From: an uncultured Desulfuromonadales bacterium
Lineage (GTDB): Bacteria > Desulfobacterota > Desulfuromonadia > Geobacterales > Pseudopelobacteraceae
Direction of reading: 5' to 3'
NCBI GenBank assembly: GCA_903868145.1
Contig: CAIPTY010000026.1
Location: 1 to 64,000 of the forward strand
Length of the DNA: 64,000 bases
In this document: piece after piece, positions 41,969 to 46,644 of the stretch
Layout of the letters: each line of letters opens with the position of its first letter
How positions within the stretch are numbered: the first letter of the stretch is position 1
The notes under the pieces: generated by a model
The model's input: only the letters and a program-made list of their open reading frames with translations
Told to the model about the DNA's origin: nothing
Database searches by the model: none
Program-made: the position numbers and the translations under genes

Positions 41969-42409
41969 ATGCTGTTTCTCTCTTCTCGCATATCCAAGCA
42001 TCCACCCCGCCGAATCACTGCCGCGTTCATGACGTTGGTGTACTTCCTGATTGTACTGTTACCACTTGCTCCCGCTGCGCTGCATTCAAAAAGCGTCTCC
42101 CACGCGGTAACCGGAGAATGCAGCGGAGATTGCAAAATCTGTGGTTGCTCACCGGAGAGCAGCGCCCGTAAAACCTGTTGCTGTGCAAAAAAATTACAGA
42201 TGAAGGAGCAAGCGCACGAAGACGCCGACACTCCGGAATGCTGCAAAAAGAAACAGGCTCAAACAACGGTCATCCGCTGTGGATGCCCCTGCGGCGAACG
42301 CAAGCAGATCGCTTTTGCCGGCATCGGGAGTTTTGAAGTTATCCCGACCGGTTTTTCGGAAAGTTTTACACAGGATCACAATGAAACCTCCTTTACCCGG
42401 AGCTTATAA
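41969..42409 (+). CDS. Cys-rich membrane-anchored/secreted hypothetical protein
   Basis: TM LVYFLIVLLPLAPAAL then CSGDCKICGC, CCC, CC, CGCPC clusters. Confidence 0.65.
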   Translation: MLFLSSRISKHPPRRITAAFMTLVYFLIVLLPLAPAALHSKSVSHAVTGECSGDCKICGCSPESSARKTCCCAKKLQMKEQAHEDADTPECCKKKQAQTTVIRCGCPCGERKQIAFAGIGSFEVIPTGFSESFTQDHNETSFTRSL

Positions 42410-43771
42410 ATCCAGCGGACTCCGTACCTCCTTCATCGTTCTGACAGGCACACAGTGAGTGTAGATCATAGTTGTCTTCAGACTGGTGTGTCCCAGAAGT
42501 GTTTGAATCGTGCGGATGTCGTAATTCGCCTGCAGCAGATGGGTAGCAAATGAGTGGCGGAAGGTGTGGGCGGTAACTTTTTTGGGAATCTTCGCCTTAC
42601 GGACCGCATGATAAAGCGCCCCTTGAAGCTGCGATTCGTGAAGATGATAACGCCGCTGTTCTCCGGTTTCCTCCACCAAAGTCAGCGACTGTTGCGGAAA
42701 AACCCACTGGTGCATGAACTCCCTCGGAGCGTTGGGATATTTCTTTTCAACTGCATCATCCAGAAAGACGCCGGCGTATCCTGCCGCCAGATCCTGGTCA
42801 TGCAGCTTCGCCACCTTTTCTATCTGCACCTTCAATTCCTGCGTGATCGCCTCAGGAATCGGCACTGTCCGATCCTTTTTTCCCTTCCCATGCACCAAAA
42901 GTTTTCCATCATCAAAGTTGAAATCGCCCACCCGAATCTGCAGGCCTTCAAACAGCCGCAGTCCGCAGCCGAATAGCACTTTTACGAAGAGGTTGTAGGG
43001 GTAGTAGAGATATTTCAATATTGCATCAATCTCCGGCATGGAGAGCACCATCGGAATATAGAGTGATTTTTTCGCCCGTGCCACATCTTTGAGAATACCG
43101 AAATCCCTTTTCAGTGCATGACGAAAGAGAAACAGCAGGGAATTGAATGCCTGGTTTTGGGTTGATGCCGCAACTTTGCACTTCACGGCCAAATAGGTCA
43201 AATACTCTTTGACGTCAGTTGTTGACAATTCATGCGGCGACTTGTTCTTCAGGAACCGTTGAAACTGTCGTGACCAGTGAGCATAGGTTTTTAGGGTATT
43301 GCGTGAATAATGGCGCACTTTTATCTCACCCGCCAGTTTTTCCAGAACGTCATCCCATTCGAGCGAACCAGATTTTTCCTGGTAGCCGGCTTCGGAATAG
43401 TGTGCCTTTCGAGAGATGTTCGGTTCTGTTTTTGATACTTCCATCCGTATTTGTTCTCTTGGTTCTGGGTGTAGAACCGGAGCAGGAGTTGAATCTGCCG
43501 ACCTTACTTGCTCCAATTTGAGCATGTCGAAATACAAAGATACCGCATGGTATGCAAGGCGTCTCTGGTCGAACGATTGATTCTTTTCCTTTAATTTATT
43601 AATAAAAAGGCGAAGCTTCACGGTATTATCGCTTTCAATCTGATATTTTTCGCAGAAATCGAGGAAAAAATGGAGCCACTTTTTATATTCTTGAAACCGG
43701 TCTGGAGAGATGCCTTTCGTAACAAGGTGTGCACGGAAACCAGTTAAAATGATTGTAGGAATCTGAATCAT
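42404..43771 (-). CDS. Integron-type tyrosine recombinase (IntI family) with extra N-terminal domain
   Basis: IntI-like segment KYPNAPREFMHQWVFPQQSLTLVEETGEQRRYHLHESQLQGALYHAVRKAKI, catalytic HTFRHSFATHLLQANYDIRTIQTLLGHTSLKTTMIYTH and terminal VRSPLDL. Confidence 0.88.
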   Translation of the reverse strand: MIQIPTIILTGFRAHLVTKGISPDRFQEYKKWLHFFLDFCEKYQIESDNTVKLRLFINKLKEKNQSFDQRRLAYHAVSLYFDMLKLEQVRSADSTPAPVLHPEPREQIRMEVSKTEPNISRKAHYSEAGYQEKSGSLEWDDVLEKLAGEIKVRHYSRNTLKTYAHWSRQFQRFLKNKSPHELSTTDVKEYLTYLAVKCKVAASTQNQAFNSLLFLFRHALKRDFGILKDVARAKKSLYIPMVLSMPEIDAILKYLYYPYNLFVKVLFGCGLRLFEGLQIRVGDFNFDDGKLLVHGKGKKDRTVPIPEAITQELKVQIEKVAKLHDQDLAAGYAGVFLDDAVEKKYPNAPREFMHQWVFPQQSLTLVEETGEQRRYHLHESQLQGALYHAVRKAKIPKKVTAHTFRHSFATHLLQANYDIRTIQTLLGHTSLKTTMIYTHCVPVRTMKEVRSPLDL

Positions 43772-43856
43772 TAAAAACCCTTTTTTTGTTAATTTTATTT
43801 ACATCCTATCAAATAATACGTATACATACGAGCAATTTTCTAATGTTAGCACAGAT

Positions 43857-44219
43857 ATGGACGCCATGCTGAAAGATATGAAAACTCAAAGCCATTTGAA
43901 GCCGGGGCAGAAGGGGACAAAGCAACTGCTTGAGAAGTACGGTGACTCTTTGCTTTGTGTCCGGTATAGATACGATGAAAAACGCGGAGTACGGTTGAAG
44001 ACGGCTGAGATCATCGTCGAAGAAAAACCGTTCCGGCCTCCCTTGCGATACCGTGACGAAGATGTCGTCTCTGTAATCGTGTCGTTTACCGAAAATATTC
44101 TTCGGAATAAGCTGAAAGCTGCGGGAGGGAGATGGGATCCAGAAAAGAAGGTCTGGCATGTTTTGTATGGTTCAATTCATGGTGACACCGAACTGGAAGA
44201 GAGAATACTGCCAGATTGA
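43857..44219 (+). CDS. Hypothetical protein, first ORF after integrase
   Basis: 120 aa ORF (KYGDSLLCVRYRYDEKRGVRLKTAEIIVEEKPF...), divergent from integrase gene. Confidence 0.7.
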   Translation: MDAMLKDMKTQSHLKPGQKGTKQLLEKYGDSLLCVRYRYDEKRGVRLKTAEIIVEEKPFRPPLRYRDEDVVSVIVSFTENILRNKLKAAGGRWDPEKKVWHVLYGSIHGDTELEERILPD

Positions 44220-44241: not shown

Positions 44242-44427
44242 GTTGCTTATTTAAGGAACCATGGCAGAGAAACCTCGGCTCCTTATATAGGTAATATGCT
44301 CCCTATATAAGGAGCTTACTGGATAAGTAAAAAACGACTAAAAGCTACTTATATAAGTAACTTCACCGGTTACCTACGTAGGTAACATATTCCTTATATA
44401 GGCAACCGGTAGCCTATATAAGGAACA
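44242..44427. repeat. Array of seven 18-bp near-palindromes (noncoding)
   Basis: Starts 44242, 44278, 44298, 44344, 44369, 44389, 44409; e.g. GTTACCTACGTAGGTAAC, GCTCCCTATATAAGGAGC, GCTACTTATATAAGTAAC, GTAGCCTATATAAGGAAC. Confidence 0.92.
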
Positions 44428-44586
44428 TATCCCTTCCGTTGATGTACGAGTTGGAACTAAAAGAAAAAAACGAGGGACACTCCCCGGTTTTCTCGACCTA
44501 CGAACTCAAAAAAGCGCAACCACTTAAAATATGAATTCAGTTGGAATATAGGACTAAGTACTATATTGTTGTTTTAAGGTGACAGT

Positions 44587-44952
44587 GTGCGCGTATTCAA
44601 ATCAAAACATTTTTCACGATATGCGAGGAAGGAAGGCATTGAGGATACCGCGTTAGCAAATGCCATTCGCGAGATTGAGAGTGGTCTCGCTGATGGGGTT
44701 CTTGGCGGTGGATTAGTAAAGAAGCGTGTTGCCCGTGAAGGTGGCGGGAAAAGTAGCGGCTACAGAACGCTTATTGCGTTCTCGTCTGGCCGAAGGAGTC
44801 TGTTTTTATATGGTTTTGCAAAAAATGACCGTGACAATATTGGAGATGATGAATTGCATGAGCTACGGAAACTTTCTCAAATCTTTTTAGGACTCAACGA
44901 GGCAGAAATCGCTTCAGCCCTGGAAAATGAGAGCATGGAGGAAATTACATGA
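44587..44952 (+). CDS. RelE/HigB-like toxin
   Basis: FKSKHFSRYARKEGIEDTALANAIREIESGLADGVLGGGLVKKRVAREGGGKSSGYRTLIAFSSGRRSLFLYGFAKNDRDNI; overlaps HTH antitoxin ORF. Confidence 0.85.
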   Translation: MRVFKSKHFSRYARKEGIEDTALANAIREIESGLADGVLGGGLVKKRVAREGGGKSSGYRTLIAFSSGRRSLFLYGFAKNDRDNIGDDELHELRKLSQIFLGLNEAEIASALENESMEEIT

Positions 44953-45266
44953 CGAAACAATATAAAAGTAAAGTTTTTGCAGCTATCCACGAAACAGCCG
45001 AGGATTTCCACGCTGTCGGCATTATCGACACTAAAACTATGAGGGAATTTGATGCATCATGCCTCACTCCCGTTAAGAGCCTGGCACCCGATGAGATTGT
45101 TGCTACACGTACAAACATCGGCGTAAGCCAGTCTGTTTTCGCGCACTACCTGAATGTTGGCGTCAGCACCATCAGCAAATGGGAACGCGGGGAAAAACAT
45201 CCTAGCGGCACGGCACTCAAACTGCTCGATATTATTCGTAGAAAAGGACTGGAAGCCATTTCATGA
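44949..45266 (+). CDS. HTH (Xre/HigA-like) antitoxin
   Basis: ATRTNIGVSQSVFAHYLNVGVSTISKWERGEKHPSGTALKLLDII. Confidence 0.88.
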   Translation: MTKQYKSKVFAAIHETAEDFHAVGIIDTKTMREFDASCLTPVKSLAPDEIVATRTNIGVSQSVFAHYLNVGVSTISKWERGEKHPSGTALKLLDIIRRKGLEAIS

Positions 45267-45406
45267 CCTTCGAAGCCATTAAAAAACAACCGGGGAATGA
45301 GGGGGCAACTTTTCATACCCCTTTTTTTAGGAAGAGATGCCAAAGTGAAATGTCCAACAATCGGCGGCACACATTTTAGAAATTGGAAACCGCGAAGTTC
45401 CTAGCA

Positions 45407-45694
45407 TTAAAAGAATGTATCAATATCCCTCATGCCATGTAGAACCCTGACAATATTGATACCGCCGCTAATCGGCATATAAAAAATCAGGTACATGCCT
45501 ACTGGGAAACTTTGCAAACCGAAATGTAGTTCATCACGGTTTCGCCCCATATTCGGGAATAATGCGAGTTTTTGGCTTGTTTCCTCAATTTCATCAAGGA
45601 GTTTATCCGCATAGTAAGGGTTGTCTTGGGCAATGTATAACCAGATTTCGTCGAGATCATTTTCAGCCTCGGGGCTCTTAAGGATTCTCAACAT
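45407..45694 (-). CDS. ParE/RelE-like toxin
   Basis: ILKSPEAENDLDEIWLYIAQDNPYYADKLLDEIEETSQKLALFPNMGRNRDEL. Confidence 0.88.
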   Translation of the reverse strand: MLRILKSPEAENDLDEIWLYIAQDNPYYADKLLDEIEETSQKLALFPNMGRNRDELHFGLQSFPVGMYLIFYMPISGGINIVRVLHGMRDIDTFF

Positions 45695-45960
45695 CAGGCG
45701 TTAGCCTCGTTTTGTTGGGCAGCAAGCCGCTTACGACCTCGCGCCTTGATAACACTCACGTCTAATGTTGTTGGCTCACCGCTATTCAAGCCTTTCTTGA
45801 TTTCGGCTCTGAGTTCTTCAATACGCTGGAACTGTCTCCGGTCTCTCACTTCAAGAAGACGCAGTGCATCACGCATAACCTCGCTTGCAGAACCATAAAG
45901 TCCGCTCTCCACCTTACTTTTTACCAGTGTTTCGAGTTGTGGTGTAAGTGAAATGTTCAT
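45694..45960 (-). CDS. ParD-like antitoxin
   Basis: MNISLTPQLETLVKSKVESGLYGSASEVMRDALRLLEVRD; adjacent to ParE-like ORF. Confidence 0.88.
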   Translation of the reverse strand: MNISLTPQLETLVKSKVESGLYGSASEVMRDALRLLEVRDRRQFQRIEELRAEIKKGLNSGEPTTLDVSVIKARGRKRLAAQQNEANA

Positions 45961-46068
45961 TTTTTGCTCCTCCTTTGACCTAAATAATAACAGAGAATAA
46001 CAAGCTTTGTTATAAAAAAGTGAAGTCAGAAAATTATTTTGAAACCTATGAACCGAAGTGAACCGAAA

Positions 46069-46139
46069 TCCCAACCAACGGCAGCACCGGTCAGCGGGAA
46101 AAATCCCCCGCCGAGCCGGTGTGCCTTATCACGTTAGGC
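46069..46139. other. attC-like integron recombination site 1
   Basis: TCCCAAC...GGCAGCACCGGTCAGCGGG / CCCGCCGAGCCGGTGTGCC...GTTAGGC; imperfect palindrome with extrahelical G. Confidence 0.75.
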
Positions 46140-46374: not shown

Positions 46375-46575
46375 ATGACTGACTTCATTGAAAACAAATT
46401 AAAAAAGCTATCAGTAACTGAAATTGAAAACATCATTGCTAAAGCCATTTCAGACGCCACTGGAGAAGAATTTGAAGCCAAAATATCAGCCGTGGACTTT
46501 GGTAAAAGCCTATTACCAGAAGCAACTTTTAGCGTGAAGCTAGAGCATCCCAGGAAGTGGGGAAAGGATGCCTAA
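46375..46575 (+). CDS. Small hypothetical cassette ORF
   Basis: 66 aa ORF with RBS aaagga; its stop codon TAA lies within the GCCTAAC box of attC site 2. Confidence 0.6.
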   Translation: MTDFIENKLKKLSVTEIENIIAKAISDATGEEFEAKISAVDFGKSLLPEATFSVKLEHPRKWGKDA

Positions 46576-46644
46576 CCAGCCGGTTGCACTCCGCCCCGCC
46601 CGGAAAGGCTGGGCGAAGCGGGTGAACCGGGCACCCCGTTGAAC
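46570..46644. other. attC-like integron recombination site 2
   Basis: GCCTAAC CAGCCGGTTGCACTCCGCC ... GGCGAAGCGGGTGAACCGGGCACCCC GTTGAAC. Confidence 0.8.

Follow-up and report, generated by a model that had tools for sequence, protein, structure and literature searches.

The stretch of DNA analyzed here (the window, 64 kb in all) contains an integron. On the minus strand, positions 42404–43771 encode an IntI-type tyrosine recombinase of 455 amino acids that matches the Pfam families Phage_integrase (E = 8e-36) and Phage_int_SAM_4 (E = 2e-30), contains an extra stretch, KKYPNAPREFMHQWVFPQ, that we take to be typical of IntI, and begins with an N-terminal extension of ~140 amino acids. Beyond it, on the plus strand, lie a small ORF (43857–44219) encoding a 120-amino-acid protein of an unnamed family, an array of near-palindromes, and the integron recombination site attI, whose core (44436–44456, plus strand) consists of a block with the family consensus ACCGGTGATTAACGA followed by G^TTGGAAC, with the junction G at 44450 (~60 loci compared). 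The first cassette region after attI (44450–46134, plus strand), which possibly comprises more than one cassette, encodes a RelE/HTH toxin-antitoxin pair (44587–45266) and, on the minus strand, a ParDE pair (45407–45999). At its end is an attC site of ~68 nt (46072–46139, plus strand), the bottom strand of which folds into a hairpin (fold z −3.9) and which scored 14.1 in an attC scan that gave 0.036 matches per kb in shuffled sequence; a second attC-like site (46565–46643, plus strand; fold z −2.5) is followed by the next cassette, starting near 46637. These sites come from a relaxed detector, which also called some palindrome arrays pseudo-attC sites; a strict detector returned no matches. 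Together, an IntI-type integrase gene, an attI with insertion at G^TT, and cassettes bounded by attC sites identify the locus as an integron.

The array is composed of 18-bp near-dyads. A reading of this DNA made from its sequence only had listed seven of them, and we located all seven: at 44242–44259 (offset −208 from the attI G, with an equivalent in locus L038), 44278–44295 (−172, core YTATATAG), 44298–44315 (−152), 44344–44361 (S3, −106), 44369–44386 (S2, −81), 44389–44406 (S1, −61) and 44409–44426 (S0, −41, closest to attI). None has an assigned strand, 7, 5, 8, 8, 9, 6 and 6 of their 9 positions, respectively, are symmetric, and S3 through S0 occupy ladder positions common to loci. Dyads are more numerous than in shuffled sequence: between 44220 and 44450 there are five non-overlapping dyads symmetric at 7 or more of 9 positions and four symmetric at 8 or more, compared with means of 0.51 (maximum 3) and 0.064 (maximum 2) in 500 dinucleotide shuffles. 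The best single dyads are not exactly the seven: because the orientation of the half-sites alternates, the GTAGCC... site scores higher in a shifted register that takes in the last part of the site before it. The motif RYNNNYTAYRTARNNNRY, which occurs seven times in the window, is matched by six of the seven sites, and all nine matches to the strict pattern RYNNCYTATATARGNNRY across the 3.8-Mb genome fall within this array or two paralogous arrays. The sequence-only reading correctly described the region as noncoding and the spacing as about two helical turns; the degenerate eighth element that it suspected near 44316–44333 is not an 18-bp dyad of the array type and overlaps a separate, non-dyad block, GGATAAGTAAAAAA (44318–44335, limits approximate, no assigned strand), that by eye is similar in relatives. 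A-rich blocks like GGATAAGTAAAAAA also lie between dyads in L038, L039, L041 and L031, and could represent a bend or the site of another protein.

Comparison of loci places the array directly upstream of the point at which cassettes insert. In most loci, the last site is followed by a block close to ACCGGTGATTAACGA, then GTT, then unrelated sequence, and in several pairs of loci the downstream homology starts exactly at GTT, with the partner's copy following an attC-like hairpin. One such case is the cassette after the L038 module, a homologue of the one starting near 46637 in the window, with 92% identity over 93 nt from GTT. Since the homology begins exactly at GTT and an attC-like hairpin precedes the partner's copy, we take G^TT at 44450 to be the cassette insertion point. 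Attachment sites resembling attC are also present downstream in several other loci, both those linked to intI and those with the ORF but no adjacent intI (hereafter solo loci). Measured from the G of G^TT, sites start at −97/−96, −72, −52 and −32 in one class of loci (class A) and at about −106, −81, −61 and −41 in another (class B) and in the window, such that the two classes have the same ladder displaced by ~10 bp, or about one helical turn. S2 lies at a nearly constant distance from G^TT (standard deviation 0.5–3 bp), whereas its distance from the ORF stop codon has a standard deviation of 30–44 bp, and the array is therefore anchored on attI and not on the ORF. Overlap or direct contact between the nearest site and the attI block could account for the conserved spacing to G^TT. 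A control or partition region had been among the functions proposed for the array; as the element is situated directly upstream of the insertion point, it is linked to attI and is not a generic control or partition region. No partition or replication initiator gene adjoins the array, as might be expected for centromere-like sites or replication iterons; its neighbors are the integron integrase and cassettes, and related copies are likewise situated at attI.

The order of small ORF, array and attI (junction G^TT at 44450) is that of a conserved module, which many bacteria of soils and sediments carry and which we found in dozens of genomes of Geobacterales, Nitrospirae and Acidobacteria. A scan of GTDB species genomes returned 258 related stretches, from which we read the best 80 loci, a choice by similarity that is biased toward intact copies; the evidence is comparative throughout, and many loci lie where contigs of metagenome assemblies end. 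Among the 80, a dyad array lies 3′ of the ORF in nearly all loci that have sequence there; a lack of conservation in related loci, which would have counted against the sequence-only reading, is thus not what we observed. What is kept is the 18-bp dyad and the ladder (successive steps of 25, 20 and 20 bp, with constant distances to G^TT), while the half-sites are lineage-specific (GTTACCTAT, GTCACTTAT, GTTTCCTAT, GCATCTAAT, GTTTATAGA and others), which agrees with the earlier proposal of selection for symmetric sites as opposed to simple tandem duplication. More distant copies, from other families of the phylum, have arrays too, and GTGTCTACA and GTTTCTAAA are among their half-sites. Among 141 genomes sampled from one order, the ORF is present in 96 (about two thirds): 57 have it together with a close IntI and 39 without one; of the remainder, 10 have a close IntI but lack the ORF, and 35 lack both. 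We rejected spread by phages or plasmids, as there was no module in phages, one partial match in plasmids, and one partial contig among viral sequences; the latter, L118 (IMG/VR IMGVR_UViG_3300005842_000485, catalogued as viral), contains a partial ORF homologue covering residues 8–59. The genome to which the window belongs has two further ORF homologues, each directly followed by a similar dyad array. One copy (L008:3926-4531; contig C10, ~108972–109530) has an intact ORF and array beside an integrase shrunk by internal deletion (residues 1–164, then 426–455). In the other (L009:5143-5590, contig C89), which directly follows a radical SAM-like gene, the ORF is frameshifted and there is no integrase; the array is still well preserved. 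We found no earlier description of the ORF or the array in the open-access literature, the supplements of Geobacter genome papers aside; those papers list multicopy and palindromic sequences, so an earlier mention in their supplements is possible.

The presence of the array follows the ORF and not the integrase in these comparisons. Loci with intI and the ORF have a mean of 3.1 clustered dyads, compared with 1.1, which is the shuffle level, in intI loci lacking the ORF (P = 2e-7). These data bear on the idea that the integrase itself binds the array, which might be entertained given that the array adjoins attI, that attI1 has extra IntI sites (PMC8946536), and that the IntI here bears an extra N-terminal stretch. 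The array is absent, however, where an extended integrase lacks the ORF (L120, L121, L145 and L157, the first two having a short attI region); arrays occur with IntI proteins that lack the extension (several IntI proteins accompanied by the module are without the N-terminal stretch, and in L123 and L124 both ORF and array are present); and arrays occur in genomes without a close IntI, such as the single-contig genome of Geobacter sp. AOG1 (G287), which has three module copies, one of them decayed, and no close integron integrase. On this comparative evidence, we consider binding by IntI highly improbable. The sequence-only reading had proposed looking for co-occurrence of the array with the 43857 ORF, which these data indicate to be the likely partner, or with the type of IntI, on which we found no support for a dependence.

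Many copies of the ORF exist apart from an integrase gene and still have the array. In about 50 of the 80 ORF loci, intI is missing from the upstream sequence that is available, which is short for some loci, and linkage to intI has changed ~14 times on the ORF tree, with at least five of these changes forced by well-supported branches. The median dN/dS of the ORF is 0.14 in a clade of solo copies, compared with 0.10–0.12 in intI-linked clades, and values for solo ORFs range from 0.05 to 0.24, similar to those of intI-linked ORFs; judged by these ratios, the ORF without an adjacent intI is under purifying selection. Divergence of the half-sites correlates with that of the ORF (Mantel r = 0.65), and half-sites differ between paralogues within one genome. 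The correlation is supportive and not proof; ORF and array are linked and may simply have been inherited as one, because the ORF tree shows a single change of half-site class.

The symmetry of the sites could in principle have been selected for pairing within a strand, either as RNA hairpins or as attC-like hairpins of single-stranded DNA, and folded single strands were among the original suggestions. The transcript of the region does fold strongly (z −6.8), as would be expected of any dyad array. In class A, however, halves in opposite orientation are 59.2% alike and those in the same orientation 61.1%, and in class B the values are 80.7% and 80.9%; the two halves of a site thus match no better than same-orientation halves that are unable to pair. 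Since halves capable of pairing are not more alike, the symmetry arises from a half-site motif in alternating orientation and not from hairpins. Mixed A/C and C/T halves freely break pairs, compensatory changes between paired halves were not found, and an Rfam search of the region matched no family. Covariation, which had been put forward as a check on the symmetry, hence speaks against base pairing and not against a protein operator, and we give very little credence to folded strands. Alternating half-sites fit recognition of double-stranded DNA by a protein, which would probably bind as a dimer. Of the functions that the sequence-only reading had offered, recombination accessory site and dimer-binding operator fit best.

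The candidate for such a protein is the product of the ORF. An AlphaFold2 model predicts two small domains with confidence (pLDDT 91, pTM 0.53); a fold search of the PDB with this model returned no solved structure at E below 0.001, and no recognized DNA-binding domain was found in the protein. Conservation is highest in a basic beta hairpin (VRYRYD....R.KT.E), which can reasonably be proposed to contact DNA. The C-terminal 20–30 residues resemble DUF5710, weakly in 67 of 71 family members and also in fold (the window protein scores 21.0 bits, under the Pfam gathering threshold of 26.5), whereas the conserved N-terminal half belongs to no named family. A zinc ribbon of the NrdR type, suggested by the top fold matches and by the motif [IV]RxRx[ED]...R.xTxE, was rejected: the hhalign probability was 1% or less, and the NrdR-type ribbon has four cysteines where the ORF family keeps one conserved cysteine.

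Transcription from upstream of the ORF may cross the entire module. A candidate promoter (TTTACA, 17 nt, TATACA) is located at 43798–43826 on the plus strand, and similar promoter-like patterns lie upstream of 12 of 28 intI-linked copies, compared with ~1 expected in shuffled sequence; in a generic promoter scan, the 43798–43826 candidate was not above chance. It is likely the cassette promoter Pc, reading through the ORF, array and cassettes, and because such a candidate is common to many copies, all three are probably cotranscribed. Sites matching the array were found upstream of the ORF in none of 47 loci, so simple autorepression at an ORF promoter is unlikely.

We think it probable, although by no means assured, that the protein encoded by the 43857 ORF occupies the array and that it serves at attI as an accessory or gating factor supplied by the integron itself. 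The array would provide double-stranded DNA sites for this protein, encoded just upstream, with a 9-bp half-site in alternating orientation as the binding unit and pairs of half-sites forming the 18-bp dyads ~two helical turns apart. Bound protein would build a nucleoprotein ladder ending ~14–25 bp before the attI insertion point, from which it might gate access of an integrase, encoded in cis or elsewhere in the genome, to attI, and/or control how much transcription from the upstream promoter reaches the cassettes; it could organize or block attI, limit read-through, or do both. The fixed spacing to G^TT favors a link to recombination. The survival of solo modules favors a role independent of the cis integrase, and these copies argue against a role that is purely that of assisting it. 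Its main role may be the control of recombination or that of cassette transcription.

The ORF product might instead act on transcription only, as a roadblock or anti-terminator on the array that has no part in recombination, such that transcription through the ORF from the shared promoter would limit its own read-through into the cassettes. The position of the array between the ORF and the cassettes, with no matching site upstream of the ORF, is consistent with this arrangement, as are the persistence of the module and purifying selection on its ORF where no intI is adjacent, and the first cassette region encodes toxin-antitoxin pairs, which are dosage-sensitive. A roadblock, however, would need neither the exact spacing to the recombination point nor the shift of about one helical turn between classes, and integrons of the same IntI lineage that lack the module (L120 and L121) still carry cassettes; we regard a function in transcription only as possible but doubtful. 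It is improbable, in our view, that the ORF and array are a relic or selfish element that parasitizes attI without benefit to the host, for example by occupying the insertion site in the manner of an addiction or target-immunity device. The scattered presence of the module, the independent changes in intI linkage, the occurrence of several copies per genome, and degraded copies (C89 and L034) could be read in that way, but there is no sign of the module moving by itself, and wherever the junction can be located, the module is directly upstream of the cassette insertion point.

An accessory factor acting at attI would have parallels among known systems. Tyrosine recombinases use accessory-site complexes, including the arm sites of lambda with Xis and IHF and the cer and psi sites with PepA and ArgR. 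These, like the array, place phased sites for accessory proteins beside the crossover point, but we found no sequence relation between their proteins and the putative accessory protein encoded by the ORF. In class 1 integrons, two additional protein-binding sites beside the attI1 core, DR1 and DR2, favor attI × attC recombination (PMC8946536). They are direct repeats bound by the integrase itself, whereas the half-sites here alternate in orientation to form four to seven lineage-variable dyads that track the gene for a small protein. For recombination of attIA with attC by IntIA in the chromosomal integron of Vibrio cholerae, an accessory factor for cassette insertion has been suspected, thought to be a host factor and unidentified (PMC8946536); the candidate described here, in contrast, is encoded in the platform, beside attI. 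Solo modules are like CALINs (clusters of attC sites without an integrase) in having cassettes with no adjacent integrase gene, but CALINs are defined by attC sites only, and a solo module retains attI and the putative operator array as well as an ORF on which purifying selection acts.

Bacteria capture cassettes to a large extent through integrons, and what, besides IntI, controls insertion at attI is an open question. In the module described here, a candidate factor is encoded within the platform, and its putative binding array is conserved and can be seen in the sequence. We would tentatively suggest, with a little more doubt than confidence, that integrons of several phyla carry a dedicated, previously undescribed protein-operator system at attI. 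If so, a small DNA-binding protein, its specificity co-evolving with that of a phased array, would decide when cassettes are captured or expressed, and the system could also act at attI platforms from which the integrase has been lost. The array is also a sequence signature by which attI sites can be found, integrase-less ones included, and the module copies constitute a natural series of protein-site pairs for the study of specificity.

Two further arrangements were observed near attI. In L094:3001-3266, intI is intact and the ORF is cut at about residue 79, with an attC-like site immediately after it; the end of the ORF and the array appear to have been lost by recombination. In the ORF-less integrons L120 and L121, which are of the same lineage, other repeated dyads lie near attI, between intI and attI: GACCGTATTCCGGTC, present twice, in L121, and GTATGTTGGCCAAC and GACCAACATACC in L120. 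These dyads perhaps belong to a different control system.
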